A stretch of 64,000 nucleotides of DNA from NCBI GenBank assembly GCA_963969365.1, contig OZ017748.1, positions 868,001 to 932,000 on the forward strand, read 5' to 3'. The notes beneath the pieces are model-generated. The model made no database searches and was not told the DNA's origin. It saw nothing but the letters and a program-made list of their open reading frames with translations. Made by a program: the position numbers and the translations under genes. The DNA comes from Asterochloris sp. CNOR1. Taxonomy: Eukaryota > Chlorophyta > Trebouxiophyceae > Trebouxiales > Trebouxiaceae. Positions 1 to 64,000 of the stretch are shown piece by piece. Positions within the stretch are counted from its first letter, which is position 1. Each line of letters begins with the position of its first letter.

Positions 1-468
1 GACGCCTGCGTCATGACGATGTGCACGACAACTCCGCTGGGAATGGGGTTGGAAGTTCCAAAGAAAGCAGAGGGTGGGGGTCTCTTGTGTGCGAGCCTTG
101 AGCTGTTGTGCTGCGAGCCCTGGGCAGGACTGCTGGCTTCAGGGATGGCATGTGCTTCTCTCATGTGTGTGCTGGCTGCACTGGGCTCCTGCTGTCACGC
201 GCATGGCAGCCCTAGGTGAACTTGCCATGTGCTACCAGCCACATCATCCCCGCTGCCCCATCCCCAAGACTGCCCTTTACTTGGCAGTCGCATGTCCCTG
301 TGTCCCGCAGGGCATGCAAGAAGTGGTGCAAAAGTTAGTGGCTCCATCTGCCTGCCGCTCCTCACCCTGTGTAGGACAGGCATCATCATGTGCCTATTTC
401 GTTGAAAGATAAGGTTTAGGAGCCGGGAATCGTTCACACGAGCCAGACTCTCCTGTTGTGCCCTCCAG

Positions 469-1894
469 GATCTGCAAAGTTTGGCGGCTCCATCTGCCCC
501 CTGCTCCTTGAGAATTCAAAGGCTCAGGACTGCGGCCTACGGCAGTGTGCCGTGTATGGGCTGGGCATGCTGGCCCAGCACCGGCAGCACATCTTCCAGC
601 CGATTGCGGCAGAGGCTGTGCAGTGCATGGTGACCATGATTCAGAGCCCAGACGGCCGGTGGGTCCATCAGTTACAGTCTCTGCTTTGTCCTCATGAAAA
701 GGCCCTGCCCTGCACCCATCAGCCCAGCTACTGGAGGAGGTGCATCATTTCTTGCAGACTGCTGCACAACCACTGCTCAGATGTGCACAAGCACTGCCCT
801 GCTGTTGCTCGTATGCAGCCTGCTCAGGCAGGCAGAGTGCTGCAGTTGCACCGACTCTGCCGTACAATCACAGCCCACACCATGCTCTGCCCCAAACAAC
901 TTTGCCGGCGCTGTCTGCCAATCTGCTCCCGGAATCTGCGCCAGGTCTGACAGGCAGCCAACATGGCGCCGCCCTGCTTGCTACAGGTCTGAGCCTAATG
1001 CGGCGGCCACAGAGAATGCCGTTGCCGCGCTGGGCCGCGTGCTGGCCTACTCAGCAGGCACCCTGCCCGACCAGGGGGCCCAGCTGGCCGAGCTCTGGCT
1101 GCATGCCCTGCCCCTAACGGAGGACAAGCAGGAGGCCGAAGGGCAGCATGCTCTGCTGGTGGAATTCCTTGATAGATCAGACGTCAGGTGGGGAACCTTG
1201 AGCTTGCTACACCTGGTGCTATGCTGGTAGACTTCCTTGAGAGATCAGACGTCAGGTGGGAAACCTTGAGCTTGCGAGACCTGGTGCCGATGCTGGTGCT
1301 CGGCATGGCCGCGGGCTTGAGCTGGGGAGCGCAGCCTGACGTGTCTGTGTGCCGAGTAGGAGTTGGTGCCTCTGTGCCGTCAGTGTCAGATGATGTCTGG
1401 CCAGACTGCCATGCTCGAGGGTGTCAGAAGCCTGGCGGGCTGCTTGAGGCGTCACCCTGAGCCAGAGTCCTGCTGGAGGCCCTGACACAAGGCAATTTGT
1501 GCGGCGCTGGGGCGGCAGGCAGATTGAACTTCTGTCTGGGTCCGCAGGATCTTGGGTCCCGGCAATAAAAACCTGGGGAAGCTAGTGGAGGTGATGGTGC
1601 TGGTGTTGGCGGGCGGTAACGATCTGTCCACTCACGACACCCGCCAGCGCATGGCTCTCCTACTGAAGCAGATGCAGGTCTCCGTGCCACCTCAGGTGAG
1701 ACCTCTGAAGTTGCTTTCTGCAGTGCCGATAACCACTCTTGGGTCCAAGCCGCCCTGTGGCGCACTTTGCTGCAGGGACAAGCCACCTCTGAGAGTGCAG
1801 ACAAGTCTTGTGCTGCCTGCAGATCTTTCAGGATATTGTGGGGAAGCTCAAGCCCAGGGAGCGCAAGCAGTTGGACTCCGCATTGTCAGCTTGA
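469..1894 (+). CDS. IPO5: Importin-5 (karyopherin beta-3), C-terminal exons, cut by window edge
   Basis: Nuclear import receptor of the importin-beta family, built of HEAT repeats; it carries ribosomal proteins and histones through the nuclear pore. Visible exons are 469-658, 987-1187, 1548-1695 and 1823-1894 (stop TGA 1892-1894). They give about 200 residues matching the end of IPO5: a YGLGMLAQ HEAT helix, then ATENAVAALGRVL, then ILGPGNKNLGKLVEV (family ILGPNNTNLPKI), ending KPRERKQLDSALSA. The N-terminal four fifths lies off the left edge. The end of exon 987-1187 is tandemly duplicated into the next intron (see repeats). Identification is by family resemblance; the exon starting at 469 is the least certain border. 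I see no coding signal in 1-468. Confidence 0.85.
1164..1290 (+). repeat. Tandem copy of exon end plus 5' splice site (importin-5)
   Basis: About 63 bp occurs twice in direct tandem. Copy 1 holds the end of the exon (FLDRSDVR) and the donor at 1188. Copy 2, roughly 1227-1290, encodes FLERSDVR in another frame and keeps an intact-looking donor, but lies inside the intron beyond a TAG at 1228-1230. Confidence 0.85.
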
Positions 1895-2136
1895 TGCCAC
1901 CTGAGAGGCTCTCAGAAGCATGCGCTGCAACTCCCTGCTGGGAATGAGTCCCTTTCCAACGGTTTCATTCATTTACTGCTCCCATCAGTCTCAAAATAAA
2001 GTGGCAGGTCGCATTTTGTACGTAGCCCTTGCTCAGGACCCTCAAATTTTCAAATCTCGCGTATACAGTGACTGTTTAACGTATACTACAAGGGTTCAGG
2101 AGAGCTTCCTCTCAAGCAAGCCGCAGCAAGAGCAAC

Positions 2137-3627: not shown

Positions 3628-3869
3628 ACCTGGTGTTGAGCATGTGCTGATGTTACCGCCAGTCAAGTGCACTGCAGCGTGCTGAGGGCTCAACCTTCAT
3701 ATTGCAGGAAGTACCACCAGCTGCAAGCCAGTCATAGATGGCAAACTCCTGTGGCTCAGCATGAGGCTCATCTTGCTGGCAGCATGGTGTGGCTGCTCCC
3801 CCTCCTCCCACTGACACTACTGCTGAAATGTACAAACTGACACATGAAAGATTCATGTCATGAATGAGC

Positions 3870-6800
3870 TCATTTGCTGTCGTCCTTCTTCTCTGACTTG
3901 CTCTTATCCTCAGCACCCTTGTGGCTGCCGTGGAGATTTTGCAAAGCACTTTGCAGTGCTGGGTCATTGGGGTTCACCCCGGGCAAGGACCCTAGGACAG
4001 AGTTGAGGTACTCGGGGTCCCTCAGCATCTGTAGAGCAGGCAGCACATCTGGGCTCTGCCAGTTTGCCATTGCTGTATGCACACCTGTACATGCAGCAGG
4101 CATTCCACACCATGCAGCCAAACAGGATGCTTGCGGCGCTTCCAAGCATGAAATCTCAGCATGCAGGGCACTAGTTTCCTTGTGGGCCTGCTGGTTACTG
4201 AGGGTACTGCAGACTGCACACAGGGTGGCTCACCTCCTCGCTGTCCCTGAGTGGCTGCTCTGAGGGGCCATGGTCCTGCATAGACATGGCCAGAGCGCGC
4301 TGCAGCTCATCGTCAGCATCCATCATGGCATCGTCGTGGCCCCTCTCAGCTGCAGGCAGCAGAGTCAGAGGTCGGCTGAGCAGGCTAGGCCAGCCTGAAG
4401 TATTATGCTGGGCGGCAGCTGATCAAGGGGTGATGACCGGCCGATGTGTGTGACTTGATCTTCACTTGATTTTCAAAGGCCAGGCAGGCTGCAGCAGCCT
4501 GCCTGCTCCAGACTGCGGTGCATGATGTGATGCAAGGCCTCAGCCAGCAGCTTGGCACACACTAAAACTGCAGGCTGGAGCGTGAGCAGCAAGCATTGCA
4601 TGAAGGCACGTGTAGCCATGCCCACTTACTGGCACCTCTGGCATAGCTTGACTGGGCCCTGGTGGCATGGCTGCTGGACAGTGGAGGAGCAACACGGTAG
4701 ACCCAGCAGTCAGACATCCACTTGCAGCCATGCACTTGGGTGCCTACCTGCAGGCACCTCCAGCGCAGTGGAGCTGGACCCTGGTGGCGTGGCTGCAGCA
4801 GCTGCAGGCTCGGGGTGGTCCACGTGCATCGACATGGCCAGAGCCTGCTGCAGCAGCTCATCCTCGTCCATGGGCTGGGCCTCACCCTCCCCACCACCAC
4901 CAGCAGCTGGTGTCACGCCTACACAGCAGGCTATGTGAGGTGGCCCTTGCTGCAGCAGGTCAGATGGCGGCCAGAGCACGACATCCCATCCAGACCGGGC
5001 ATGGAAAGCGTGATTGGGCTGCGCTGAGCGATGATGGCCCCATGAACTAAAGACAGCTTTTTCAGCCCCAGCTTTGAGGCAGGCTGCCATCTTGTTGAAG
5101 CCCAAGTACCCATCCCATGGCCATGCAGCTGATACTGCATGTGCCTCGGCCGGTGCCAGCACAGGCTGTCACCCCGCAAAACCTCAGCAGAGTCTGCCTC
5201 AGAAGCCCTTTTCCGCAGCCTGCATGGCCATTGGCTGCTGGCATTCTCTCAAACCCACCCCCACCATGAATTGCTTGAATCCATTAGCATTCAAAACGCT
5301 GTGCCAACCCTACCTGCAGCAGCCTCCCCGTCATCGGTGGCCGGCGTCCCGCTGGTCCCCGCGCCCTCCGTGGAGGCAGCGTTGACAGCGGTCTGGCGGG
5401 CACGCTCCTCCTCCATGGACACTCGCAAAGCCAGAGCCAGCTCAGGGTCCAGGTTGGGGTCCACGCCAAACTCATAGGGGTCACTGCCGCCTGCAGAGGG
5501 GAAATGGACTCACAAAAAGAGCTCTTGGGATGGACAGGCCTTGACAATACCCTCTGTTGCCTGTGCGCTGTGCAAGACTGGCAGGCAACAGGCAGCATGG
5601 GGATCTGTCAGCCCTGCTGTGCAGCGCCTCTGCAGGAAGCGGCCGGACCATTCCTGAGGCCCATGCTGTCCTGAAATTGAATCTCTGGGGCAGCAGACCA
5701 CACAACATGTTTGTTCTCGCAGACATCGATTCTGCACCCACCTGCGGCAGGTGCGCCCTCCCCTCCACCTCCAGCTGCAAACCCGGTGGCATTATCGCCC
5801 TGGAAGATGGCAGTCCCAAACAGCGAGTCAGACAGGATCATCCCTGGCTGCACAGTCACCTGCAGCCAGGAGACCAGGGATATGTGGCATGTACATGGCT
5901 CAACCTGACCACTTCTGTCACCACGGGGAAGCCTGCTAATCAACATCACTGCAGCTGGCACACAATGTGCACCAATACAATGCTGGCATGCATGTCGGGC
6001 AGCAGAGCAGACTGGGTTCTCCCTCACGCAGCAGCGCTCAAGTGGAGTTGGTGAGCTGTGCATCATTGCTGGCCCTGCAGTCACGCCTCACTGGCGCACT
6101 CGATGCAGCGACAGGCGAGGCATATCAAGCGAGAGGCAACCCTCACTTCACCAGCTGCTTAGTTCTGGCAGTATTCCCAGCCTGCAGTGATTTGTGGGGC
6201 ATGGAGAGGGCGCGAAGGACCAGCATTGGATCTCTAGGCGTATCCAATGGCTGTCATCACCACCAGGTGGACATTTGAGGGCCAGGCTGGCTCTGGCATG
6301 CTCTAGCGTCAACATCAGAGACTTATGTTGCTGACGGCCACCAGGTGACGAAGTCTGTCAAGCTAAGTGGCATTGCTGGGAGCTGAATGCACTGGATCTG
6401 GGTCAGCACGAGTGGCTGCTGACCCTGCCGCAAGCATCCTTCTGAGGGCCAGCCAAACAGTGGCGTCTCCTGTCGACATCAATGGCGATATGCTGTGGCC
6501 CCCACAGAAGGCAGACGCTGGTGCTGTCAATCCCTCTGAGTGTGCCCGCTTCTTGTCAAGCCCTACATTACAGCTCACCAAATGGGCTGCTGACCCCACT
6601 GACAGTGGCACTCCCTGGTGACGACAACACAGACAAAGAGCTGTGCCATGCCACATGGCCAAGCCCGGCAACCTGATCTGCAGGCCAAGCACACTGATTG
6701 GACTTTACCAGGTGACTGTTGTCCCCGCTGTTGACTGCCTCCAGGAATGCATCCAACTTCTCTGTGTTCTCCTCCTCGCTACCAAAACTGACAATGTCGA

Positions 6801-8354: not shown

Positions 8355-11300
8355 ATGCCACGAGGCAACGGGGAGCCAGCTGTGTCCCACGCTGGGCAGC
8401 AATCAACCTCTGAGTCTGCCAGTCCCAAGTCCTATGCCATTGCCCTGGGGTCCAGCATGGACCTGGACTCCGTGGCCAGTGGGGACTTCGATCGCGCCCT
8501 GAGGGCACCCCTGCTGCCTTCGAGGTTTGCCAAGGAGGACGCTCAGCAGGACGCACAGCAGGATGCGCACCCAGCAGAGGCTGCTGAAGCATCTGAGCAG
8601 CCCACAGGCAATGGTGCAGCAGATGCAGGGCACCTAGGTAACGGAGCAGCAGATGCAGGGCACATAGGCAAGTCCTCTGCCACAGCCATGATTAGGCTGC
8701 GTTTCTCTATGGCAAGGTCCGTTGCATGCTGAGGCTGTCACTGCTGACTGCCTGCAGACCCAGAATCAGGGCATGACCACAGCAAGCATCTAGCAAATTC
8801 CGGCTGGATGCTGACAGCCTGTGTCATGCTTGGAGAGATGTTCGGCCTGGTGAGAGGCTGCACGACTTGCTGCACTGCTCAGGCTCGGCTGTTGGAGCGC
8901 ACAATGCCCTGAATCGCCTTTCTGGTGGAGAATGCACAAAACGCCCTGCCTGCAATGACTGGTCTGATGCGCAAATGCCCAATGCATCGCCATTGCTCAT
9001 GGGTCCTCAGCCGAGCCCAAAACTGGTGAACCCTGCCCACAAAAGCACACCCATCGAGAACTGTCGCTGCAGGGTGTCCTGACGCTGCCAGCAGACTTTG
9101 CACGGTTAGGGTGGGGGGTTGCGCTGGCCCTGGTGCTGGTAATTGCAGTGGGCACAGTCTACTCGGGAGCCCTCTTTGGCAAGCTCAGCCAGCTGCTGCC
9201 TGGCTCAGCCTCCTTCGAGGACATGGCACGGGCGGCCCTGGGGAAGCATGGCAGATGGCTCGTGTACTGCACGGTGAGGCGCATCACCTCAGCAGGTTGC
9301 GGCAGGCAGCAGGTCAGCAGCGAACAACAACCCAGAGAGCAGCCTTCTCCGCACTTGGAGCGGCTGGCTCTGCAAGCTGGGCAGTGGCTGTCAGCGATGC
9401 CCCACATGAGACATCTCCCGCCCACGGCGCCACACACCAGCACAGCAAAGCAAGACAGCCAGCCCTCCCTGTCTCTGCCTCTGCCTGGGCCCCTCCCAGT
9501 CCACCGTGACCTGCATCCCCCCTGCCTGCTGTCCTCTGTTGCACTGCAGCGGACCTGCATGCTGTCCTGCCTGCCTCAGGTGTCTGCACCTGACTGCTGT
9601 CCTCTACGCCTGTGAGACTGACTCGAGTGCCCTGCTCCCCTCAGGTGTACGTGGCCATCTTCTTGGACCCTGTGATCTTCCACCTGACCAGCGCCAAGAG
9701 CCTGCAGCAGATCTTCTGGTGGAAGCCCATGCCGCTGTGGGTGGCGGGCGTGATTGTGGCGGCCATCATGGTTCCCCTGGGGCAGGTGAGTGTTAGGGAG
9801 GTTGGTGAAAGGAGTGAACAGGTGCACAAGGCATGCATGCAGCTCCCTGACCATAGGCGTGATGGTGGCGGTCAGCATGGTTCCCATGGATTAGGTCAGT
9901 GCTGGGCAGGCCGCTGAAATGGTTGAACAGTGCGCAGGGCATGCATGTGGCGCTAGGCAGGCTGCTGAGCCCCTCTTCAGGGGGTCTGCTGCATGTGCCG
10001 TGCGCGCCGCCTTTGAAACCAGCTGCACAGCGCTGACGAGGGGCTGGCCCGCAGAAGCAACGCAAGCTGTGATTCCGGACTGAATCCTTCAAGGGGCTGC
10101 ACCACTTTCACCCTCTGCATGTGGCCCTCATCTTACCGCCACAAGGCCCCACAGCGGCCCTCTTTCCAGGAGAGGGCCTGTTGTGACCAGGCTGACAGCT
10201 TCAAGTTGGGCTGCTGCCTTGCCATTATGGGATCCACGCCGCCCCGTCCACACCTGGTCTGTGCAAGCTCTGCTCTCAAGGATGATGCAGCTGCGCCGCT
10301 GCACGCTGCCCTTCCCTCTCATGGGAGTGCCATCACGCTGGCCAGAGCTGACCTCAGCACCTGCTGTTACGGGAGCTGCACTTTGCACCCTGCCTCAGCC
10401 TTTGCCCGAGTGCAAAAAGCCCCTGGCCTGTGCCCCTGCAGGTGCAGGAACTGTGGTGTGCTGCTGAATGGGCCTTGGCTGAGAGCGCAGCCTGACCAGC
10501 CTTCTTTGCGCCCCTGCAGATACAGGAGCTGGACAGCGTGAGCTCCATCTCCATTGTTGGGACAGTGGGCATGGTCACGGCAGTGGGAATTGCCCTTGTC
10601 AAGCTGCTGCTGCTGAAGAGGCCTGAGGGGGACCACAGGGTTGTCAACACGGGGCAGGACTTTAAGATTGCGATGGTGGCGCTCTTCGACATTGTGAGTC
10701 CATGTCTGTCATTGTGAGCAATTTTCATGTTTGTGACTGCTGGGTCTCAGCTGTGCATGCTTTGCTCAGACATTGCGCCCACACATGCACCCCGGGAATT
10801 AGCTGCAGCCTGGCAGGGTCCAACCACGCATCTCAACGGTGCCCAGCACTCCTGCTGGTAGCCACAACAGAGCATGAAGCACAACAGGTGGTCTCGGTGC
10901 GCTCGCTGTCGGCATCAAAACATGTTACGTAAAAACAATTTTCAGTACATTACTTAATCCATCTGTGTTGGCGTTGCCTGAGGCCCCCGCACTGCCTGCA
11001 GGTGTTCTGCTACGGCGGCGCCCAGAACTGGCCCTCCTACATCAAGGGCATGCGCCGGCGCAGCGACTTCAGGAAGAGCTGCACCTTTGTCACAGTCTTC
11101 ATGACCGTGCTGTACGTGCTCACTGGGGGTGTGGGCTACTGGAAGCTAGGCGACCACAATGCCAGCTGGGACAAGAGCCAGCCCATCACCAGCGTGCTCA
11201 GCTCAGACACTTGGACCAGCATCATGAATCTGGGCCTGCTGCTGCACTGCCTCATCGCCTATCAGATCGACCTGTACGTGTGGACGGACCTCCTGCTTAC

Positions 11301-43322: not shown

Positions 43323-44607
43323 CCCATCCATCAACGCTCCTGATGGCGGCTAGAGCCTTCTTTATGAGCTGAATAGCAGCAAGTCAGATCGACCAGCAGA
43401 CGCTGTGTTCCTACATACACTACAGCCAATCAATGCAACCAATGCAGCAGGCACACTGGTGGTCCAAGAAAGCAAGTGGCTTATCTGCCTGGAGCAGGAG
43501 CTCCAATGTGTTGATGGTCCCTGTGCGGCAATGTCTTGTCAGATGCAGTCCTGCCCGCAGCCCACCTGGTCACGTAGAGAGCCTAACTGTTGCCTGTCCT
43601 GCCTGCTCTAGAGCTGTACATCTTCCTCAGCCCTCTAAGTCTGAATGTGGGCATGCTGTACACAGGGAAGCATAGGCTGGAGGGCAAACCTACCACTGAG
43701 ACAAAAGTGGTGCCCAGCAAGGGCACCAATTGCAGTGTGCCGCAGAGAGAGATTCATGACCAGCAAGTCCTCTGACGCCTTGTCAGCAAGGACTTGAGCC
43801 TCATGAGGCAGTTGATCAGCTGAGCAACACATTGCATGGTAAAGCGCCTCTCCTGCTTGTTGTGCAGTGTGTACACGTTGTCTGAGCAGGAGCTGAAATG
43901 ATCATTATTCCTCCACTGATTCGGGCATTTCTTTCATGACACTACAGGATGTTACATTGAGCAATGTTTTCATGCACATGCATCCCAGCGACTTGGTGTG
44001 CAGGTAGAGAGTGTCAACAAGCAGTGGCAGCCTTCATTGGCTGCCCAGCTACACAATGTCCTTGTCATGGAATCCCTCAGTATGTTTTGCTTGATTGCAT
44101 GACAGGCCCACATGGGAGATCTCAGGTGCACCTGAGACAGCGGGGAGCAGACAAGGAGCAATTGTAGGCTGGCTGGAGTGCCTCATGTGCTGCTGGAGCC
44201 TGACATGCACTGCCGCCAAACAGGCATTGCTCAGTAATGAACATCCTCCATTGCTGCTCGGTGTATGCAAACCTCCAGTCAGAGGGAGACCCTGGGCGAA
44301 CACAACTGAAGTGGCTGCTACTGCGTTGTGGTTTTGGAGGAGAAGTTAGTGAGGTCCAGGATGATGGTGCACTTGTCTCTCATCAGCAGACCAGCGTGGG
44401 AGCCAGCCAGGTCTAGGGTTGCTGCACCTGGTTGACAACTCTGTGCCATGCACACTCTTGACTCGATGTAGAATGCAGCTCAGGCTTCCAAGAGAGCAGG
44501 CAGAAGTGAAGTTTGCAAAGTGTGACAACAGAGTACAGGTTTCAGCCAGATCTGGCTGCGCAGCCTGTAGTGTCATGTAAGGATGCGTCTTTTCACTATG
44601 TCAACAT
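43323..44607. other. Gene-poor stretch upstream of tRNA-Asp
   Basis: About 1.3 kb with only short open frames on both strands. I see no family resemblance, no terminal repeats and no strong tandem repeat. Confidence 0.5.
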
Positions 44608-44679
44608 GTCGAATTAGTATAGTGGTTAGTATGGCCCCTTGTCACGGGGCAGACCCGGGTTCAATTCCCGGATTCGGCG
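44608..44679 (+). tRNA. trnD-GUC: tRNA-Asp (anticodon GTC)
   Basis: A 72-base cloverleaf without intron. The acceptor stem pairs GTCGAAT with ATTCGGC (one G-T pair), with discriminator base G. The D arm carries A-box-like TAGTATAGTGG. The anticodon loop is TTGTCAC between GCCCC and GGGGC. The T arm holds the B box GGTTCAATTCC. The gene is followed by a T run. CCA is not encoded, as expected for a nuclear gene. Confidence 0.95.
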
Positions 44680-44705
44680 TCGAATCCTCATCCTGCCACA
44701 CACTC

Positions 44706-49668: not shown

Positions 49669-52600
49669 ATGCCAGTTCATCGATCTGTGCTGGAGGACCT
49701 TGGGGAGGAGCTCACAGGCATTGTCTCACCGGTCTCCCTGTGCATGGCACTCACAGTGGCTTTGGTTCGGGTCCTGAACCCAGATGGGCTCAGCGGCGGC
49801 AGTGGAGTGGCCATCGCCTCTACCTACTACAAGGAGCAGGCAAGCTGCCCAACTGCCTGCAAGCTTGCCCTGGCATTGGCAAGGTGTGTCTGACAACGTT
49901 GACAGCATGGAATGCTGCAGTTTCTGCGGCCAAGTCCTTCTGAATGTTATTGTGCAGGCAGACGATTCTGCTGGCACTAAACTGACAGGCTCAGTGATCA
50001 ATGCCCTCATCTTTGTGGCCATCGTTGCTGCCATGACCTGCGTGCTCGTCCTGTTATTCAAGTATGGGGTGAGAGCTGCTGTACCTTCAGAACAGATTGT
50101 ATGTGATGCCAGGCACCCAAAGTTGCCCCACTCTGTGCAGCTCACCCAGCCTGTTCTCTGCTGTAGTGCACCAAATTCATCTATGCCTACATGAGCTTCT
50201 CAGGCTTCAGGTGAGCCATGCTGCATGACGCTCTTTGGCGAATGCAAGCAGCAGGATTCTGCCTTGGTCCTGCTGCTCTGAAATGAAGTGAGTCAGCCAA
50301 TCATCATGCCGCCATGCCTGCAGCATCTATTTCATGCTGTCTGGCATCATCATTCTGCAGCTGCTGCACAAGTTTCAGATCCATGTGGACTGGATAACTT
50401 TCTCCTTTGTCTTATACAATTTTTCGGTGAGGCGTGACAAGTTTACTGGTGCAGCAGCATGCTTCGAGTGCCATCATGTCCTGACAAGCCGTCGGCAGCG
50501 CTGCACACACACACACCTCACTCTGCAACCCCAGATGTGCTTTGCATCACGACAATACAGGCCCTGAACCAGAGGGGGTCAGCAGTCAGATCCACATGCC
50601 CGAGCAGCATGCTGCTGCACTTCAGCCCCGCGAGCAAGCCGGACAGAATCCTCAACTGGTACTTGAAAAGCCCCCACACCCCAGTGTACCCTGTTCTGCC
50701 ACTGCAGGTGGTGGGTGTGCTGTGCGTGTTCTACTGGCCAGCCCCCATCCTGCTGAAGCAGGGCTACTTGGTGCTGACGGGGGTGGTGGTTGCCTATGTC
50801 TTCACCTTCATTCCTGAGTGGACCACCTGGGTGCTGCTGCTGGCCATGGCGCTGTACGACCTGTGGGCCGTGCTCACGCCGCATGGGCCGCTTAAGGTGA
50901 GGGTGCCCTGCTTGGATGGCAAGCAGCAGGCCTGATGGCAGTGGCAATGCCATGCCACCTGGCTGTGTTTCGGGTGGGGCGTCCTTGCAGGAAGAGTGCA
51001 GGCTAGAGTGCTCTTTGCTGGAGGACAGCTGTGCTGCAACACCAGCTGGCTGAGGTCCGGCAGCCTCAGGTGCACAGAGCAAGTTGTGGTCTTTGGTAGC
51101 CAGCCTGACGGCTGAACAGCATGAGCTCAGTCCATGCTCAGCCTTTGGTGCTGGGCATTTACCAACGAACTGTTTGGAGCTCCCTCAAAACAAGTCTCTT
51201 TCCATTCAGATCATGCTGTCCATGGCCCCCACTGAAGTGAGGGCAATGGATCTTGTCGTGCTGCAGGTGTTGGTGGAGCTGGCTCAGGAGCGCGACGAAG
51301 ACATTCCAGCGCTGGTGTATGAGGCGCGCCCCGCCGGCAGAGTTGCTGCCCGGCAGCGCCAGCAGCAGAGCCCTGCGGAGCTGCAGGGCGTCACTGTGGA
51401 GGGCCACACACCGGGGTGCCCCACTGAAGGTGCCAACCATCTGTGTTTGGGCAGTGCAAAGCATCTGGTGTTCCTCTGCCTGCTCGGGAGTGGCACTCCG
51501 AACATGCAAATCGATTGTTGCAGGATGACGCAGTACATGCAGCTGTCCCTATCCACATGGAGCACAGTGATGGAGTGGGGTCCGGCCTCACACTTGATGC
51601 AGCGCCCAGGATGGCTTCACTGCCGCACACTGACGATGCAGGTGGCAGGAGTGGTGGAGAGGCCCGCCCACCGGCCCTGCTGCAGCAGCAGCTCCACCCC
51701 AGCCACCACCTTGCAGCTGCCAGGCCTGCTGGGGACCCTGCCGGGGTGGCAGTGGACTCCCCTGGGCTGGCCTCCCTGGGAGTGAGCGGCGCTGCCGCCC
51801 CTGAGGCAGCCGCCGCCCTGCTGGGTGAGCCTCTACGTCCCTGCAGCACCTGCCAGATCGTCTGCCAGTCTCCTGTTGAGCAGCACTGAGAGTCTCTGCT
51901 GTCCGCTGGCCTCCCGTCTGGCATCCAGACGACATGGGGCCTAGCCTGAGGGTGTCTTTCAGTGCTGCTGGCAGCAGCCTCTGCCCTACTGTCAAGCGGC
52001 AGTCTGTCCCTGCCTTCCACAGGACTCGAGGCTACCGAGCAGCCCGCCCTGTCAGGTGATGCGGCCAGCGCCCCAGCAAGTGAGCCTGAGGAGCAGCCAG
52101 CACAGCCTGCCAGGCAGGCGCCTGGCAGTGCTTCTGTCTCATACAGCTGGCAGCAGCCAGCACAGAGCTCAGGACGGCATCCAGATGGCTCACAACAACA
52201 AGCAGCCAGGCAGCAGGAGGGACAACGCTCAGCTGATCCAGGCTCGCAACAACAGGCAGCGGCGCGGCGAGATCAGCAGCTGCGGCATCGAGAACGCTCA
52301 GATGCAGGGGAAGGGGATGAGGAGAGCGAGTGGGGCCTCCCAGAGGCCATCAAGCTTGGCCTGGGTGAGCAGCGTCTTCTGCCCTTATATCTTGATGCTG
52401 CTCATTTGGCCCACAATGTCTAATGCCCTAGGTGTGCGGTCCACCATGCCAACTTGCCCTCTTCAATGCTTGGTCAAGCACTCTGATGTTTATCGCAGGA
52501 GACCTCATCTTCTACTCTGTACTGGTGGGCAGAGCCGCAATGTATGACATGCTGTCTGCGTTTGCTGCTTACCTGGCGATCATAGCAGGCTTGGGAATGA

Positions 52601-52743
52601 CGCTCATTCTACTGGCACTGGCGCGCAAGGCGCTGCCAGCCCTGCCCATCAGCATCGTTCTTGGAGTGTCCTTCTATTTCCTGGCCCGCTTCCTTCTTGA
52701 ACCGTTTGTGCTCAATCTTAGTTTGAACCTGCTGTACTTTTGA
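49669..52743 (+). CDS. PSN: Presenilin (GxGD intramembrane aspartyl protease)
   Basis: Catalytic subunit of gamma-secretase; plant and algal presenilins also act without cleavage. Exons: 49669-49839, 49958-50068, 50167-50210, 50324-50426, 50708-50896, 51267 to about 51389 (end uncertain), 51524-51824, 52023-52364, 52499-52743. Membrane helices include VSPVSLCMALTVALVRVL, VINALIFVAIVAAMTCVLVL, FMLSGIIILQLL, GVLCVFYWPAP and AYVFTFIPEWTTWVLLLAMA. Catalytic Asp 1 is in ALYDLWAVL, Asp 2 in KLGLGDLIFYS (split by an intron), and the PALP motif is in KALPALPISI. Between the aspartates lies a long Gln/Ala/Pro-rich cytosolic loop over exons 6 to 8. Exon 1 ends AAGGAGCAG before GCAAGC, so intron 1 is GC-AG: the protein join YYKEQ to ADDSAGTKL is in phase and no GT serves. 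Confidence 0.93.
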
Positions 52744-53958: not shown

Positions 53959-56900
53959 TCAAAGCTTTTGTTTCTTACAAAGCGGTTCGTTACCATTTGA
54001 TTGAAGAGCTGGCTTTGTCTGGAAGGCAACATCTTCAGGCACACGAAATGTGAGACACAGCATGTGTTTGTTTGGTGCCACATTCCGGACAATGTGAATG
54101 TTAAGTGCACCCTCCGGGAGCCTGGCCCCAAGAGCCGCCTCAACGCGCTGCTGGGTGCCTACAGATGTCACAGCCAGCTGAAAACTGAATCAGCAGCAAC
54201 AGTAATCCCATTGAGAAATCATCGAAACGATAAACGTTGCTTACCTGCATCAGTCTCAGGTGCCTTCTGAAATGTGTAGCAGTGTATCTGAGGCAGCTTC
54301 CCTGACCAGAATGTGGGGTCAAATGCTCCAGGGAGGGCATCCAGAAATTCTACTGCAGAGGCAGGCAGATTCATGATGGCATGCTGGAACAGCACTGGTC
54401 CTGATGGCAGACTCTCCTCTAGGCCATTGCTGCTGGTCTGGTGATGAGCGGCTGCCTGACTCTCTGGCTGGCCTGCAGTTGTCAGTAGGACACACTAGTC
54501 ACTTAGGCCAAAGGAGTGCACACCTCTTGGGCAGTGATTGGCAAGGAATCCATGCAGTGAGCTTGGCAGCAGACTTGCCTTGCAGCTGGCCAGGGTGGGT
54601 TGCAGCTGATGGTCCGGCAGGCTGAGAGGCTGCCTCAGCAGCTGGGCTGCTGATGCAGCCCCCACAGAGGCGGCGCAGAAAGGCGCGGCCGTCCATGTTG
54701 GAGGCTTGGACTTTGCCCTGCACCCTGTTCAGCTTGATGTTGCGCTGAAGGTACTCAAAGCTGTCAGGGTTCAGGTCATTTGCAAACACCTGCAGGGTCA
54801 GAGCCTCTTGCTGAGAGCTGGTCCTGGTGGATGCCCATTATACAGGCTGGCTGTGGGAGCAACAGCAGGCTGACAGGGAAGGCTAAAAGAGCTGGGGCTG
54901 ACACTTCAGCAACAATGGCAGCTGCCTTATCAAGCAGAGCCACATGAGGTTTTGTGGGCATAGCAGCTTCGCACCCCTTCTGGGCAGCCAGGAACAGGAA
55001 GGATGATCTCTCAGCAACAGTGCCCTGACAGCAGCCACAGCAGTGTGCCCACCTGGCACCCCTTCTGTGCTGCTGGGACTGCAAAGGGCCCGATGCCTGC
55101 CATGACATCTACCACAACATCACTGCGCTTGAAGGTGTCCACCAAGCGTTTGTGCTCCCGCTCCAGTCGTGAGTTCCAGTAGACCTGCAATGGGCAGGCA
55201 GTCTTCAAGCAGCCAGTCAGTGATATGCAGCATGCTGCTGCCCGGCTGCACTTGACAGTGCCCTGAAGCAGACAGACAAGGAAGGGCATACGCTGCTGCC
55301 TGACTGCACAAGCCACGTTCAGTCACTGTTCCTGCTACAGGTAGGTCATGAGGTGGCATGGAAGACCACTGCAACATGCTGTACGGCAGCAGCAATAGGC
55401 ACCAGATGCTACCCTGCTGTGTGGGAGTGCGGCTCTTTGCCGAGGCCCCCCACGACCACCGCTGCAGCAGATCAATCACGGCAGCCTTGAGCCCAGCAGC
55501 TACTGAACAGCTGGCTGTGCAGGCAAGTCTTGTCTGCTGTGATGACAGGACCCTTGAGCCCAACAGCTACTGAACAGCTGGCTGTGCAGGCAAGTCTTGT
55601 CTGCTGTGATGACAGGACCCTGACAAATCAAGGTAGGGAAAGGAGCTCAAGTCCCTGGCCCTACTCTGCTCCACCTCAGCCGATCAGACGCGTTTGCTGG
55701 CAGGATGGCAATCACCTTGGAGAAGTCAAGGCTGAAGCGCGCTTTGTGCTGTTTCACCTCAGTCTCCAAACTGGGCTCGCCGGCCAGCACCTCCATCTGA
55801 AACACTCGGAACTCGTTTTCGATATTGCCCAGCTGCAGGCCACAGCATACGCCTCTCAGTTGTCCATCAGGCAGCCATCTACCTGAGGCATGTGCAAGAC
55901 ATGAAGGCTGACAGCCACAAAGACCTTCAATGAGAGCAAGGTGCAGGCTGAGCACATCCTTGTGAAAATGGCGTGTCCTTTTTGGAGAGGCCAGGTGCAG
56001 GGCAAGGATGCAAGATGGGGGCTTTAAGATGGAAGAGAGGGAGAGGGCCTCAGGCAAACACTGCACCTTATTGACAACGGTTCTGATGGAGGGGTTTTTG
56101 TCCAGTAGCACCTGGGCAATCAGCTGCTTGTGGGGCAACAGCTCATCCCGCAGGTTCAGGTGTGCAATGTGCCCCACGCTCTCAAACGAGCTTGGCAGCT
56201 CAATCATGCCTGGCAGCGCCTTCTGCAGGCAACATGGAGTGTTGTGAGAGGAGCTGTGCAAAGATTGTGTATTTTCTGATGACCCCTACGCCATCATTTG
56301 GAGGCTGGCTGTGACAGGTCCCATGCTTGGAGCATTCTAACTCAGTGCTCTCTGGCAGCTCCCCCTGCAGAGCACATGTAACCGCTACGACAAGCACTAG
56401 AGCAGGCTCTGCAGCTAAGTCATTCCTGGCAACACTCTCTGCAGGGCCAGGTTCAGGCTCCGCAGTCAGCCCCATTCTGGCAGCGCCTTCTGCAGGACGC
56501 CTGCAGCTGCTGGCTGCAGGCGGCTGGGCCTGCTAGTCTTGCACTGCCGCCATCTGCCCGCTTCCTGCAGGTGATGTTGTGCGCGCCGGCTGATGCTGCC
56601 AACCAGCTTGCCACTGCCAGCGGACCACATGCAGCTGCTTTGGCTGCAGCCCACAGGTTCCATTCTGCAAGGCCGTCCTAGCAACCTGAGGCTGTGCAAA
56701 GCAGAGTTCCATGCGGTGCTTGTTGCTCAGAGACGTGCTGGCGCACCTTCAGGACCTGTTCCATGCTCATGTGCTGGTAGCCAATGGTCACAGTGTGCGG
56801 CACCAGCTCCAACTGATGCTGGTGCACGATGTCCAGGAGGTCTCCATTCATGCCCTGCAGATCTGCGGGACATGTGCCTCGCTTGGTTCAGACGTGCCGC

Positions 56901-57511: not shown

Positions 57512-57635
57512 CCGGGGCTCTCAAAATAGAAAATGATGGCTGACCTTTTTGAAGGCCATGAGACGTGCCTCATAGCATGCGCAGCATCTAGTTTCCGTCA
57601 TCTCGTTGTTAGTCCCCTGGATACTAGAGAGCAAG
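57512..57635. promoter_or_regulatory. Shared divergent promoter region, TRM5 and XRCC4-like
   Basis: Only 124 bp lie between the TRM5 ATG (57511, minus) and the next ATG (57636, plus), the tightest divergent pair here. Confidence 0.5.
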
Positions 57636-60481
57636 ATGGCCATTTCCATCGAGAATAGCTGCAGGAGCTTCAAGGACAGGGACAGCCAGCAACAGTACTA
57701 CATGCGGGTCAATTTCAGGGGAGACTCAGCGGCAAAGGACTTTGAAAGCACAGCAGACTTCACTGTGCAACTCACAGATGTTGAGAGTGCTTGGCAGGCA
57801 GGCAGGTGCCTGCTGTTGTTCTGCACTAACCCACAGTCCACCTGACAATGCGGTGCACTTCAGCTCAGAAGGATGTTGCCTGACGAACTTGTTGCTCGGC
57901 TGCAGATGTGCAGCGGCCGCCTGGTCAGCCAGAGGAGTACAAATGGATGCAGCATGCCATGACCTGTCTGGCAGGCCCTGCAAACCAGGAGCATGCCTAC
58001 AGCTTTGATGCAGACACGGTGGGCCCTCTATGATGCTTTTACGCCTGATCACCTTGCACCAGCATGCTTCAGATCTGCTGGCATATCAAGATCTGAGGCA
58101 GAACTGCTGCTGGTGCTTGTACTTGGATTGTGCCCATCCTGCACTAAATGCCTGCAGTCCCAGATGTGCAGGGCATGCTGCAGTGGCACTTTCCCACAGC
58201 CAAGACCCGGCGCAAGCAGTCAGCCCAGCTCAAGCCTGTGAAGCCTGCCACCAAGTTGATCAGGGAAATGCTGGATGCTGTGCTGTGTAACCAGGATAGG
58301 CTGCAGGCAAGCTGGCCCTCTGCTATGCATACAATAGCGGCATCACAAGCAGCCGCATTGGCCGTTGCCAAAGGGCTCACTCAAATGGCCAAAACGCATG
58401 GGCTCAGCACACTTCAAATTGCTGCACAGGCAAGATGTCGTGGCATAGCAGGCGTTTTAGTGCAGACAGGCCTGCATCTGCAAATTTTGCAGCACAAATG
58501 CCATGCAATGAGTTTATAGGGGGGTGCAACCCTGCAGGGCTGCACACAGAGGCCCATCTCTGCGCTTGCTAAAGCACGACTGCCTGCTTGGTATGGGGTC
58601 ACCACCCTGTAGGGTTGTAACACAGCCAGCGCACACCCGCTGCTGGCGCAAGACGCTTTGCTTGCCCCGCAGGCTTCAATGGAGACCCTCCAAGGCAACG
58701 TGGAGGCTGCTAGAGAGGAAGCCAACAGAGCTCAGGGCAGTGTGCAGAGATACCTTGACAATGATGAGCAGCGACTGAAGGCGCTGTACATCAAGGCAAG
58801 CTACCCCATCTGACTGCAGGCTTCTGTCAGCCAACCTCCAGGTGCTAGACTCTTGGGTGCTCACCTGGGCGGCATGATGCAGTGCTTCAGGCAGCTTGTG
58901 GGATCCCTGGCCGGGCCAGCAGGCTGTGCTGTGGTTGCACAGCAACGATGAGCAGTGACTCCAGGAGCTACGCATCAAGGTGCAGATGGCAGCTGGGCTG
59001 CAGTTCAGTTCATGGAGGATGTAATGCCCGTTGCGCATTGCTGAAGCAGGCTATCTGTGGTGACCTGGGTTCAGCTCAGGTGACTGTGCAGTGGCTGCTC
59101 GTGCAGTGTCAGAGAGTGCTTTGCAGCCCACACGACAATGCAGTGTCTGCTCACGAAGCGCTGGAAGGATGGTGTCTTTGCAAACTGAAAGCGAAGTGCA
59201 GATGTGTGCTCCTGCAGCTCAGCGACGCCCGCCTGCCATCAAAGCCCTTCGAGCAGAGAATCCTGGCACCCCTGCAGCTCTTTCATAACGAAATGCTGAA
59301 AGCAATGCCTGTCTGCACTTCTGCAGACAGCAATGTCTTTGTGAAACAGCAGCACTTGCTCAGAGCAGTATGTACCTGTGTCCCTGCAGTACTCTGATGT
59401 GCTGCTGGAGAATAACGATGACAAGGCTGCCCTCAAGAGTGACAATGCTGCCCTCAAGAGGGAGCTGAACGATGTCACACGGGAGCTGAACCAGCTGAGG
59501 GCTGCAGGAGATCATATGGTGAGTCAGTCTGGCCCCCGCTTGACGTGCACTCTGCGCTCATAATCATGAACTCACGTAAGGCAAGCATTCCATTGCACAT
59601 CTGCAGTTGGAGACGGCAGCTTGCTACATCTCCTCTTCTGCCTGGAGCCCAGGGGCTCTGACTGGGGTGTTCTGGTCCACGCACATAATTGGGAAACTAC
59701 AGCAGCAGAAGAGATCCCTGCAAACCCAGAACAGAGAGGGCTGTGCTAGGCCCAGAGCTGATACTTGTACTCTACAGATACTGCGTTTTTGATTTGTGCA
59801 GGCAGCAGCAAGTCCAGTGGGTAGACATCCTGAGGACGAAGATGGGAGTGTCTATGATGCTTATGATGTAGAGACAGACCCTGGCACTGACAACGAGCGG
59901 CAGGAAGTCACAGCAGAGCCTGCAGGTGCCTGGACCATGCTCCTGCAGTCATATTGACCTCTTCTGACCAACCGACAGCATGACATGCTTTTTGGCAACC
60001 TTTCCTGGTGCTTTGTTGCATAACCAAAGAGAAGTGGCTTGTCAGATCCTGCGCACAATGTCTGCCTCAGTGACTGTTGACGCTGAGCAGGTAGCCCTGG
60101 ATCATTTGCTGTCCTGCAGTTGGCAATCAGAGTTGATGCCCTGTTTGCAGATGAGGATGTTGACATGCAGCCAGCCGCAGAGGAGCTTGGCTCAGCAGGT
60201 GGGGCTCATGCAGGCCTGCCCGCCATCAACACACCAATCAGAGCTAACGAACAGCATACTTCTGCTTCTGCAGACACCTTTCTCACGGCAGAGACGCAGA
60301 ACTTCTCTGCTGAGCAGCAGGAGCAGCTTACAAAGCAGGCACAGCTACTCAGGCCGCCTCTTAGTCAGTCTCAGCCTCAATCTCCCAGCATGGCTCAGCC
60401 TCTACCAGCCAGTCAGCCTCTGATCCCTAGTCCAGGAGCATTGCTATCAAGAGAACCTCCCAGAGTGAGAAGGAGGCGATG
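57636..60481 (+). CDS. XRCC4: XRCC4-like DNA ligase IV partner (non-homologous end joining)
   Basis: XRCC4 scaffolds DNA ligase IV at double-strand breaks. Exons: 57636-57801, 57906-58018, 58172-58306, 58673-58795, 59390-59518, 59802-59925 and a last block about 60120-60481; joins after 59518 are unsettled. Head domain: YYMRVNFRGDSAAKDFEST, FTVQLTDVESAWQ (family LTDGxxAW), then EEYKWMQHAMTCLAGPANQE, HAYSFDADT and MLQWHFPTA. A long helix follows (MLDAVLCNQDRLQ, NVEAAREEANRAQGSVQRYL, LLENNDDKAALKSDNAALKR), the expected coiled-coil stalk, then an acidic segment (GRHPEDEDGSVYDAYD) and a Gln/Pro/Ser-rich tail ending RVRRRR. Introns 1, 3 and 4 are best closed with GC donors (57802, 58307, 58796). 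Similarity is weak, as usual for this fast-evolving family. Confidence 0.62.
58500..58665. repeat. About 77-bp diverged tandem duplication in XRCC4-like intron 3
   Basis: ACCCTGCAGGGCTG at about 58529 is matched by ACCCTGTAGGGTTG at about 58605, with similar flanks (ACACAG and GCGC blocks). Confidence 0.6.
58755..58990 (+). repeat. Decayed copy of XRCC4-like exon 4 end with a GT donor
   Basis: The exon end reads DNDEQRLKALYIK then GCAAGC (58796). About 185 bp downstream the intron reads NDEQ, TGA, LQELRIK then GTGCAG (58945-58990). Confidence 0.85.
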
Positions 60482-60696
60482 AGGAGCTTCAGTGTCAATC
60501 AATAGCTAGGGGCATGTGTTGCGTAGACATTCATGAAATGGGCCTGGATCCAGAGGTGTCTCAAACAAGCTAAGCTGGTGCAGCTGACGAATATCAACTC
60601 ACTGCACAACTCACATCACAGTGAGCCAGCATGGCGGGACAAAGTGCGGGCTGAGCACTTGCTGTAGCGAGAGGACAGCGGCCCTGCTGACAATGC
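60482..60696. other. Convergent 3' ends of XRCC4-like gene and phosphorylase
   Basis: 215 bp between two stop codons on opposite strands. No TGTAA is obvious; nothing else is seen. Confidence 0.5.
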
Positions 60697-63494
60697 TTAG
60701 TTGGGCACTGGGACGGGTTTGACATCCCAGATGTCCTTTGCATACTCATAGATGGTGCGGTCGGAGGAGAACTTGCCACTGCCAGCTGTGTACAGGATAC
60801 TGCGACGGGTCCAGGCGTCCTGATCCTTGTAAACCTGCAGCAAGGGTGGAACTGGGCAACTTCTGGGCTTCCGGCAGTTCACTGTGAGATGCAGGGCTGC
60901 CCAAAGTATACTGATGCACATTTGCCAAAGCGCAGAACCCAGCAAGCAGTGCTGCAACAGCAATTGCGCCAGTAGCAGGTGTTCCTTGCCACTCTCACAA
61001 ATTGCCCAAGCATGCCATCCTGTGAAAGCATCTGCACCCCTTGACTCACCGCGTCCACCTCGTCCTGCGCCTTCATGTAGGTCGCAAAGTCGTTAGCGAC
61101 CAGGAACCAGTCATTCCCCTTAGTCATGTCATTCACATTGTCCACCAGGTCCTGGAAGTACTTGCCATCGCCGAAGGTGCCGCTGGTGATGCTGCAGGGC
61201 AAGGTGGGGGAAGTCTCAGGGTACATGAGCTGTTCTGTCTCGTTCTACAAACAGGTCAGGATCAGTTCAGGGGGGGTACAGCAGACACCGTGACGTGTGC
61301 TGCTGCACAATGCTTGCCCTGAGTGCACTAGCACCCAAATTGCCGCTGATGATGCTGCAAGGAGGGTGGACGAGCCGATTCAGGGCTTGGCCTGCATCTG
61401 CTGCATGGCGAGATGCTGGATGCAGCAGGGCAGGGCGGCACAGTGCTTGGCTTGCATCTGCTGCATGTCAGGGTGCCGGATGCACCAGGGCAGGGCATCA
61501 AGCCACACAGCCAGTCGTAACACATGGGGCAGCCTGCCAGGAAGCGCAGCCACAAGTACTACAGTCTCCTTGAGTGACGCTCTGGAATCTGGCATGTGTA
61601 CACTTGCCGCAGGGGCTTCAGAGGGTGCGGCATTGCTGGCAGCCAGGCATGCAGACAAGCTGGAGAGCTACTCACGCTTTCATGACCCGGGTCCACCGGG
61701 GGTCATAGTCCTTGAAGTTCTTGCGCTCCTCACGCAGGCGGGGCACATCCTGCAGCCGCAGCGGGGCTGAGCTGAGGCAGTCCCCTTGGATGAACGTCAG
61801 GCAGCACTAAGTCTGGCAGTGACAATACACAACAGGAGTGCTCATGGCAGCGTGCCTGTCTGCACGGCTGCCTCCAGTGCATGGCATTGAGCAACGTGAA
61901 CAGTGCGATCTTACCCAAGAGCTGAAGCTGCTACTGCCAGCACCGTTGGCAACAAATGCAGCGGTGGTGCTCACCACGTCGGAGATGATGAAGATGCTCT
62001 CAGCAGGCCGAGCCAATGCACATGGCATTGCTGCTAGGTGGCCTAAACCAGGGTGTGCACAGGTCTCACCTCCATGTCTGCCTCCACACAGACAGTTTCT
62101 CTGTCGAGAGCTGCCCATGCCCAAGCAACAGCATAGTGTCGCACAAGCAGTCACCTGTGCGTCCACGCCGAAGATGAACAAGTTCTCCTTGCCAGTCTCC
62201 TCGGCGATCTCAATGTTGGCGCCGTCCATGGTGCCAATGATGAGGCACCCGTTCATCTGGAACTTCATGTTGGAGGTCCCCGAGGCCTCTGTGCCGGCTG
62301 TGGAGATGTGCTGGGACAGCTCTGCGCCAGGGATGATGTACTCTGCCAGTGACACATTGTAGTCTGGCATGAACACCACCTGCAGGCGTGATGGAGGCAC
62401 AAGCTGAGGCAGCCCTGCAGGGAGGGGATGCTTCGACTGCCAGGAACACATTGGACTCTGGCATGCGCATCACCCGCAGGCAGATAGGACTTGAGCTGTG
62501 GCAGCTCTACAGGACAGGGAGAAGCACCCTGGCCAAGACGTGCTTGGCAATCAGCAGGACAGGTGGCCAGCCGCACTCATGAAGCAGCCAGGCGGCATTG
62601 TAGCAGCAGCACACAGGCCACGCTAGCTCCACTGTGAGAGGACGGCTCAGGGAGGCTGGTGGCTTGGAGGCAGCACAGCTCAGCCATGCAGCAGCGCCAA
62701 TGCATTCAACAGCACAGCGTCTGCAGATGACAACAGGAGCAAAGCTTGCAAGAGTCAGGGTGGTTTGACAAGTTGGTAAGGATTCAGATAGTGCTGGCCT
62801 TGCGCAAGCTAGACTGGGTTGACCCACACCTTGAGCAAGTCACCAACATCAGGGTCATTGTTGACCGTCTCCCCCACGGCCGTGATCAGGCGAATAATCT
62901 TCTTGGCCATGTAATAGGCTGATGCAGCCTTGCCACCAAAGATGCACACACGGGGCTGCACCTGCAGGCCAGAGCAAGCGGGCTGTGCTGGAGCAGCTAG
63001 CACTGAGAGGGATGTTGTGTCCAAGTAAGTTCCTCTGAGAGGCTCTTGTGCGCAGGCTGCCTTGCTTGGAGGATGTGCGCATGGGAGCTACTGGGGACGG
63101 GTTAGCATGAGATGCCCTGTGGCGTCTGCACTAGGGACTGCAGGTGGAGCATCTTGACTGCCTCAAGCAGGGATCCCCACAGATGCCTGTTGTGCGGTGT
63201 CTGCACAATGGTGCAGACCCCAAGCTTGCATCCTTGCACACATAGAGACCAATCTTGCAGACTACTGCACCTTGTGCCCTCTGTCCTCAAGTGTAATCAT
63301 GATCCCAGGGCAGCATCCCCACGGAACATCAACAGGGGTAGAGTGCCCACTTTGCTGCTTACCTTCTTGCGCTCCTCTGGGCTCATGTTCTTGATCTCCA
63401 GGTAGCGGTGGATGATGGAGAAGAGGTTGAGGTGCTGCCGCTTGTACTCATGAATGCGCTTGATCTGGATGTCGTACAGGGCATTGGTGCTGAC
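60697..63494 (-). CDS. PHO: Alpha-glucan (starch/glycogen) phosphorylase, C-terminal exons, cut by window edge
   Basis: PLP enzyme that releases glucose 1-phosphate from alpha-1,4-glucans. Visible phase-checked exons: 63363-63494, 62830-62961, 62155-62379, 61676-61749, 61050-61191, 60697-60834. In order: [92 protein letters not shown] (the Lys binds PLP), [56 protein letters not shown] and the end VKPVPVPN. About 250 residues, the C-terminal part of a roughly 850-residue family; the rest lies off the right edge. Plastid or cytosolic form cannot be told without the N-terminus. Confidence 0.95.
61340..61510. repeat. 60-bp tandem duplication plus acceptor echo in a phosphorylase intron
   Basis: TTGGCCTGCATCTGCTGCATG at 61387 recurs as TTGGCTTGCATCTGCTGCATG at 61447 with related flanks. 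Just left, about 61340-61370, TTGCCGCTGATGATGCTGCAA echoes the exon edge at 61180-61200 (GTGCCGCTGGTGATGCTGCAG). Confidence 0.8.
62340..62490 (-). repeat. Decayed copy of phosphorylase exon start and acceptor
   Basis: The exon starts [16 protein letters not shown] at 62379. Upstream in the intron, about 62427-62490, the same strand reads CCTGCGG, then [16 protein letters not shown]. Confidence 0.88.
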
Positions 63495-63880
63495 CTGCAC
63501 GCCTGTCACCTCCTGCAGGAGCGCCGGTGCAGCACTCAGGGCAGATCATGCACTTATCCACTTGTGGCTGGTGACCTGCAGCTGATCACCTGCACGCCTG
63601 TCACCTCCTGCAGGGGTGCCAGGGCAGCACTTAGGGTGAAACATGCACTCATCTACTTGTGGCCTGCAGCTCATCACCTACACGCCTGTCACCTGCAGGG
63701 TAATGGGCCCAGTTGCCAGAACAGACCTTGGACGCAGGGCATAGGGACCTGTGACCTGAAGCTGAGGAGGTGCATGCCTGTCACCTCCTGCAGCAGTGGA
63801 GTGCCCAGGGCAGGATCTACAGAAAGTGGTGAGATGACCTGTAGCTGATCCCCTGCATGCCTGATCCCCCACCATCAGGA
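63490..63880. repeat. Array of four to five copies around the phosphorylase 3' splice site
   Basis: The block ACGCCTGTCACCTCCTGCAGG, next to the working acceptor at 63495, recurs with changes at about 63594, 63683, 63774 and 63857. Spacing is about 85 to 95 bp, with shared interior words (GGGCAGCAC, CACTTGTGGC, GACCTG). Confidence 0.88.
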
Positions 63881-64000
63881 CATGCTGTGAGCACAGAGAG
63901 GACTTGCAGATTTGGATGCGCATATGGGCTGGACGTCATGTAGGGCACCAGGGCAGACCTTGCGTGTGAAGTGGGTTTGTGACAACAACAAGTGACCAGA
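63881..64000. other. Right edge of window
   Basis: Intron or undetected exon of the phosphorylase gene; no family match could be made in the last 120 bases. Confidence 0.4.

Follow-up and report, generated by a model that had tools for sequence, protein, structure and literature searches.

Decayed tandem copies of exon edges in the introns of a 64-kb stretch of an Asterochloris genome

Introduction

In amphioxus, the globin and Adh3 genes contain tandem duplications of the intron-exon boundary, designated "mirages," and the data in the sections of that report considered here suggest that these units leave regular splicing undisturbed (PMC3087553). Repeats of a comparable kind occur in the window analyzed in this work, a 64-kb stretch of contig OZ017748.1 from Asterochloris sp. 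CNOR1 (positions 868,001–932,000), in which the start or the end of an exon recurs within the adjoining intron; we refer to these repeats as exon-edge copies.

The lengthening of introns without transposons is poorly resolved, and roughly every fifth or sixth intron in this window still shows its steps. Zhuo in 2007 and Gao and Lynch in 2009, going by their titles, are said to deal with tandem arrays giving rise to human introns and with ubiquitous internal gene duplication. One general way in which local tandem duplications arise is the repair of staggered breaks; they were short (<100 bp) in the human work excerpted here (PMC8355091), and a review describes, in the part considered, insertions of 10–1000 bp in rice as tandem duplications from repair (PMC7407515). 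The Coccomyxa genome has 7.0 introns per gene with a mean intron length of 240 bp, and the excerpted passages of its genome paper make no mention of exon-edge repeats (PMC3446292).

Results

Exon edges are repeated in the adjoining introns

The window, with a GC content of 51–61%, is tightly packed with intron-rich genes on both strands; ab initio prediction on the two strands and hand curation yielded models for 19 genes with 114 introns. An ungapped self-comparison of all 64 kb, which is independent of these models, retrieved 37 direct segments less than 600 bp apart with a score of at least 18, and none farther apart; these segments are not independent events, since arrays are shared among them and a few are coding repeats. 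There were no inverted segments under 10 kb and two beyond this distance, and an origin from inverted repeats was rejected on this comparison with the 37 local direct segments.

When the 40 exon bases flanking each border were aligned with the intron on its other side, 17 of 228 edges, from 17 of the 114 introns and 12 of the 19 genes, matched with a score of at least 26 (13 donor and four acceptor edges, in a run with two slightly different models). The expected number was 0.40 with dinucleotide-shuffled introns (20 shuffles per intron) and 0.07 with introns of other genes; none of the 228 edges reached a score of 26 against reverse-complemented introns, and neither did any of 127 40-base exon middles, one of which matched at a score of 24. 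The exon-edge copies are real and well above chance, affecting at this strict cut-off a majority of genes but a minority of introns. The original prediction, made from the letters alone, had named 12 genes with edge copies and proposed comparing edges with own, shuffled and other-gene introns; the strict test retrieved precisely those 12 genes, and its claim of one rule across unrelated genes was also borne out.

Searching the entire window with gaps allowed, we retrieved 63 pairs with offsets of 20–700 bp, grouped in 35 clusters: 24 at exon edges, seven internal to introns, three exon-exon and one intergenic. Once the pairs were mapped, 13 genes proved to carry 35 edge copies, distributed over 23 borders (13 of donors and 10 of acceptors), this search adding a weak copy in NSUN5 and two borders whose introns reach the ends of the window. 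A repeated pair of any type was present in 22 of the 114 introns, a count that omits a doubtful 15-base match (29692–30243) still included within the seven intron-internal clusters; likewise, the single intergenic cluster (12596–12695) would be intron-internal if the last LSG1 intron is real. An explanation by protein-level repeats was tested and rejected; the three exon-exon clusters are coding repeats (4277/4825, read as two UIM-type motifs, 52187 and 59419).

One of the pairs (55485–55621) is 99% identical, as could be expected from an assembly artefact; however, most pairs diverge by 10–30% in their aligned parts, unlike collapsed or repeated reads. Chance likeness of the splice-site context would have to produce the 17 matches seen from null expectations of 0.07–0.40, obtained with the same splice contexts. 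The probability that the copies are an artefact or fortuitous is, in our view, negligible.

The repeats at exon edges, followed by two intron-internal duplications, are listed below with their coordinates in the window and strand.

327–508 (+), importin-5, exon 469–658: exon start echoed 146 bp upstream (327–362), exon side only
1149–1297 (+), importin-5, exon 987–1187: 3′ edge with its donor (1188) in 2.2 tandem copies of a 68-bp unit running into the intron, the exon side and the intron side each about 90% identical
4619–4796 (−), PSMD4/RPN10, exon 4748–4918: donor edge 4741–4796 echoed at 4619–4674
8606–8671 (+), AAAP transporter, exon 8355–8613: short repeat 30 bp downstream, largely of the intron side and including 8 exon bases
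9747–9947 (+), AAAP transporter, exon 9645–9785: donor edge echoed 109 bp on (9856–9947), exon and intron sides both repeated; the copy holds a TAG stop
10429–10531 (+), AAAP transporter, exon 10520–10693: acceptor edge echoed at 10429–10453
13605–13827 (−), LSG1, exon 13429–13633: upstream echo of the acceptor edge (13738–13827) at a distance of about 132 bp
14366–14647 (−), LSG1, exon 14603–14741: two copies of the donor edge, spaced by 116 and 120 bp, with donor-equivalents at 14486 and 14366; the donor border agrees with the alignment to solved LSG1
14719–14840 (−), LSG1, exon 14603–14741: acceptor edge echoed 88 bp upstream (14807–14840)
15081–15374 (−), LSG1, exon 15347–15578: donor edge with two copies (15222–15248 and 15081–15115)
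17619–17766 (−), LSG1, exon 17730–17872: donor-side exon edge echoed at 17619–17653
19141–19473 (+), PPR gene, exon ending at 19162: 158-column repeat over the donor, 177 bp apart, 70% identity
20623–20890 (+), PPR gene, exon 20508–20676: donor edge with two copies (20720–20758 and 20838–20890)
21428–21581 (+), PPR gene, exon 21254–21477: exon end, stopping 13 bp short of the border, recurs at 21548–21581
23654–24197 (−), PAI, exon 24140–24371: donor-side edge with three copies (23868–23914, 23763–23814 and 23661–23703)
27313–27459 (−), cyclin H, exon 27428–27636: donor edge echoed at 27313–27349, 89% identity
28822–29400 (+), RRS1, intron 2 (28692–29352): acceptor and exon start (29353) with four good upstream copies and a weak fifth (28925–29025), about 80–104 bp apart
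33990–34404 (−), TOP6B, exon 33897–34044: acceptor edge with three upstream copies, acceptor-equivalents at 34139, 34224 and 34328
47808–47946 (+), NSUN5-like, exon 47759–47816: weak donor-edge echo at 47927–47946 (20 bp, score 30)
56195–56496 (−), TRM5-like, exon 56067–56222: acceptor edge with copies at 56411–56445 and 56477–56496
58759–58980 (+), XRCC4-like, exon 58673–58795 (GC donor): donor edge echoed at 58943–58980, with an in-frame TGA in the copy
61178–61369 (−), phosphorylase, exon 61050–61191: acceptor edge echoed at 61341–61369
62310–62513 (−), phosphorylase, exon 62155–62379: acceptor edge echoed at 62403–62513
63480–63900 (−), phosphorylase, exon 63363–63512: acceptor edge with three upstream copies, acceptor-equivalents at 63607, 63695 and 63787; a fourth unit (63835–63863) matches the copies
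55485–55621 (−), TRM5-like: intron-internal tandem duplication, 67-bp unit, 99% identity, touching no exon edge
61381–61496 (−), phosphorylase: intron-internal tandem duplication, 60-bp unit, 86% identity

Arrays and divergence of the copies

The offsets of the 63 pairs peak at 75–125 bp (28 pairs), with a second rise at 175–200 bp (eight pairs), and alignments of the RRS1, phosphorylase, TOP6B, PAI and LSG1 intron 8 arrays show a roughly even spacing. TOP6B and PAI have three copies each, LSG1 intron 8 has two, and the first phosphorylase exon has three plus one unit. It had been claimed that an edge recurs one to five times; in RRS1, four copies are well supported, while the fifth is weak. 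The identity of the RRS1 copies to the exon copy is, by rising distance, 0.66, 0.58, 0.63, 0.41 and 0.48, a downward tendency that looks as if new copies form beside the exon. The nearest copy is also the most exon-like in the phosphorylase array (0.75); in the TOP6B and PAI arrays the most exon-like copy is the farthest one (0.64 and 0.58, respectively). In four of the five arrays the mutual similarity of the copies does not exceed their similarity to the exon, which is not the pattern of concerted evolution; the TOP6B copies are slightly more alike mutually (0.625) than to the exon (0.580). Crossing of the border, evidenced by repetition of the intron side as well, is significant in nine of the 35 edge copies (p ≤ 0.01) and the rest show little beyond the exon side; for copies without a visible intron side, the pattern could reflect either decay or a unit whose end lay close to the border.

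The duplication at 55485–55621 is the youngest event seen in the window; it is very recent, or it may be polymorphic.

The copies look like neutral relics

Exon-copy differences are evenly spread over the three codon positions (0.189, 0.170 and 0.198; 37 pairs, p = 0.65). The offsets of the edge copies are distributed 8/10/17 modulo 3, indicating that the reading frame is ignored, and nine of the 35 copies contain an in-frame stop at most 16 codons from the border. When fixed windows of 30 bases are compared, more similarity is left on the exon side than on the intron side (identity of 0.664 vs. 0.469, p = 1.6e-4), which fits a conserved exon copy beside a freely changing intron.

The copies had also been said to keep their splice sites. 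GT or GC is present in 15 of 17 donor copies (strict GT in 12), and AG in 11 of 18 acceptor copies. Were the copies functional, kept by selection as alternative splice sites or as alternative exon ends in tandem, this retention would be expected, and the strict figure of 23 out of 35 does exceed the 0.34–0.47 expected by chance from ungapped windows. However, indels lower the identity of such windows, and the identity of the aligned exon parts (0.81) leads to a chance value of around 0.66, as observed. With no codon-position signal, frames not kept and stops present, we consider functional copies very unlikely. No clear sign of constraint emerges, and the copies have the appearance of neutral remnants left by tandem duplication.

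Introns with copies are longer

The median length of introns containing a repeated pair is 520.5 bp (n = 22), compared with 217 bp for those without (n = 92; p = 1.1e-8), and pairs occur in 20 of the 38 introns of at least 350 bp vs. two of the 76 shorter ones. Longer introns offer more room, yet few matches are expected there by chance under the nulls. This association favors the earlier inference that introns grow by duplication over their borders. The sliding of splice sites, postulated along with it, is no more than possible; the gene models place the used splice site at the outer copy. Alignment of LSG1 with its solved homolog at the borders of introns 7 and 8 showed no copy-sized insert, with one single-residue gap near intron 8, and therefore the extra copies at these introns are not coding; these borders agree with use of the outer copy, and judging from this comparison the outer splice sites of both introns appear to be in use.

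Tandem genomic duplication is also a published route for the creation of new introns, described in the passages considered from two reports (PMC3443670, PMC2891723). Such an event should leave a copy over the donor that matches, at a distance of one intron length, a copy over the acceptor. None of the 51 detectable pairs in the window shows this geometry, and we regard this origin as extremely unlikely here; introns outside the window, or those whose age has erased the trace, may nevertheless have formed by this route. Copying from spliced RNA or by mobile elements, in the form of cDNA patches or introners, could account for copies that begin or end near splice sites, and one of 31 copies does score 21 against the neighboring exon, where the 99% point of a similar null is 20. 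The other 30 copies score 8–19, and no direct similarity with a score of at least 18 exists between different genes in the window, as introners would produce; we give this explanation next to no credit.

Probable location-blind duplication and possible preference for borders

In our opinion, the best explanation for these observations, to which we assign a probability of roughly 0.8, is that small local tandem duplications occur frequently, fall anywhere, leave neutral exon-edge relics and lengthen introns. Duplications, mostly of about 60–180 bp per step, would be frequent in this genome and blind to location. Those falling wholly within coding sequence would usually be purged and those within an intron would be neutral; duplications crossing a single border would also be neutral as long as splicing keeps the outer donor or acceptor, leaving the protein unaltered. 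With each border-crossing event the intron would gain one unit, and the exon edge and splice site stranded inside it would then decay, repeated rounds building up decayed arrays, arranged head to tail and terminating at the exon. Since selection keeps the exon copy, exon-intron pairs would be recognizable for longer than intron-intron pairs.

We simulated uniform duplications, allowed if they were intronic or crossed one border, with a fixed exon copy and a decaying remainder, varying indel rates, unit sizes and intron sets. Edge clusters made up 56–78% of the simulated clusters, compared with 24 of 31 observed (77%, counting exon-edge plus intron-internal clusters). This preference for edges is near the expectation of a uniform process because introns barely exceed the unit, coding-only duplications would be purged and the exon copy is conserved. 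With shorter introns or longer units, which gave simulated fractions of 0.65–0.78, the P for 24 of 31 was 0.10–0.63.

Several observations nevertheless weigh against a purely location-blind process with neutral decay. The observed edge share is at the top of the simulated range, and with measured units and all introns (fractions of 0.56–0.64) its P was 0.01–0.08. The intron side is visible in 14 of the 35 edge copies, compared with 50–66% in the simulations, which used a slightly different gap cost, and some copies end close to the border. Uniform placement predicted seven intergenic pairs, but only one was seen, in a single cluster. Additionally, mismatch in the aligned blocks is equal for exon (0.186) and intron parts (0.192), when an approximately twofold intron excess was expected, although this comparison is blunted because local alignment trims poor ends. 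Lastly, five of the 18 acceptor copies (28874, 29081 and 29177 in RRS1, 34328 in TOP6B and 62473 in phosphorylase) keep the CTGC of CTGCAG with a broken AG, a pattern not foreseen under neutral decay; this could be due to selection silencing decoy upstream acceptors, or to chance.

Some of these patterns would be expected if breaks, nicks or template switches favored exon-intron borders, e.g., via co-transcriptional structures. The 24 edge clusters against seven intron-internal and one intergenic, as well as the scarcity of visible intron sides, point in this direction; likewise, 26 pairs contained a border when 15.4 were expected under uniform placement (p = 0.001, a value on which we do not rely because the pairs are not independent). 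Conversely, geometry and conservation of the exon copy suffice to produce 56–78% of edge clusters, and duplications of the same size occur inside introns, including the youngest one (55485–55621). Targeting of borders is not required and we consider it unlikely, although borders, or units that stop close to them, may be moderately favored. A broader possibility is that duplication aimed at borders, via breaks linked to transcription or splicing, is the main route of intron lengthening in this lineage, long introns being decayed minisatellites derived from their own exon edges and renewed stepwise outward from the exon; we hold this to be doubtful.

Gene models and other features of the window

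Pfam matches support the identity of RPN10 (VWA, UIM), an LSG1-type GTPase, PPR, PRAI, cyclin, RRS1, topoisomerase VI B, TRM5/TYW2, phosphorylase, DNL zinc finger, amino acid transporter, MORN, presenilin and DSBA genes, as well as an RsmB/F-type methyltransferase, taken here as NSUN5. Importin-5 lacks a Pfam match but matches solved importin-5 (E = 9e-22), and the LSG1 gene matches solved LSG1. The XRCC4-like assignment is weak, with a Pfam match (E = 0.0004) that does not reach the Pfam cut-off, and for the gene previously designated PPR-SMR Pfam shows PPR only, the SMR part not being found by Pfam.

Nearly all modeled introns are GT-AG, with mostly TGCAG at the acceptor, and the few GC donors were modeled in the TOP6B, presenilin, cyclin H and XRCC4-like genes. 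In the last of these, one GC donor belongs to an earlier intron and another was modeled at 58796, the decayed echo of which carries GT at the equivalent position 58979. The donor of cyclin H intron 5 is uncertain, because 26092 is in frame but without GT, while 26091 has GT but breaks the frame; codon-position and stop counts were computed with 26092, and edge and pair counts with 26091. The last TRM5-like introns and the start of the first PPR exon are other weak spots of the models, which leave out a 5′ exon of DNLZ and the 3′ end of LSG1.

The presenilin gene (49669–52743; Pfam E = 1.3e-121) has nine modeled exons and a long low-complexity loop, and showed no edge echo in the test of 40-base edges against own introns. 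A tRNA-Asp (GTC) at 44607–44681 is the sole RNA-family match in the window at gathering thresholds, and an intron of the PPR gene contains a long C homopolymer (21875–21900). A scan of viral-contig proteins gave no matches with TOP6B; with phosphorylase, the 80 loci kept out of 197 had 46–51% identity and were not used further.

Discussion

The exon-edge copies of this window probably originated by repair or unequal exchange rather than by other local copying, and the arrangement at LSG1 and in the gene models suggests that the outer splice sites are the ones used. We infer that the duplications are frequent relative to other genomes and that the process may extend over the whole genome. If so, this genome would show how splicing hides mutations at coding borders from selection. 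The conserved exon edge would then serve as a built-in reference for dating each duplication and would make rate, size and placement directly measurable. The copies also call for caution in gene finding, since a decoy edge gave the ab initio predictor a false small exon (63590–63607).

Our literature search brought up no description of a genome in which the majority of genes carry exon-edge copies, although this is weak evidence of absence because most subscription papers fall outside the literature covered. The mutation itself, a small tandem duplication, is familiar: the break-repair papers describe it, and neither exon-edge copies nor intron growth appear in the passages considered (PMC8355091, PMC7407515). 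Intron gain by tandem genomic duplication, as presented in the excerpts considered, involves the same class of mutation, with splice sites carried along, but it makes a new intron inside an exon, whereas here existing introns grow (PMC3443670, PMC2891723). Introners share sequence across the introns of many genes, whereas the window contains no direct segments with a score of at least 18 beyond 600 bp.

The closest system is that of the amphioxus mirages, as described in the sections considered (PMC3087553). In both cases an exon edge and its splice site are repeated in the adjacent intron, donor and acceptor borders are both affected, and many copies keep AG or GT. Mirage units, of 10–72 and 150–160 bp, are similar in size to those in the window, which are mostly of 60–180 bp. 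Conversely, mirages were described from a few named loci, being possibly more general in cephalochordates, whereas here 12 of 19 genes of an alga-like genome are affected; their units are 81–100% identical in one globin gene, whereas our copies are mostly older and decayed, the aligned parts of most pairs having about 70–90% identity; and they show concerted evolution and differences in copy number among haplotypes, whereas the arrays in the window show no clear homogenization (PMC3087553). The exon-edge copies thus look like a mirage-like variant that is unusual in its density, age spread and lineage, and whose density may be exceptional.

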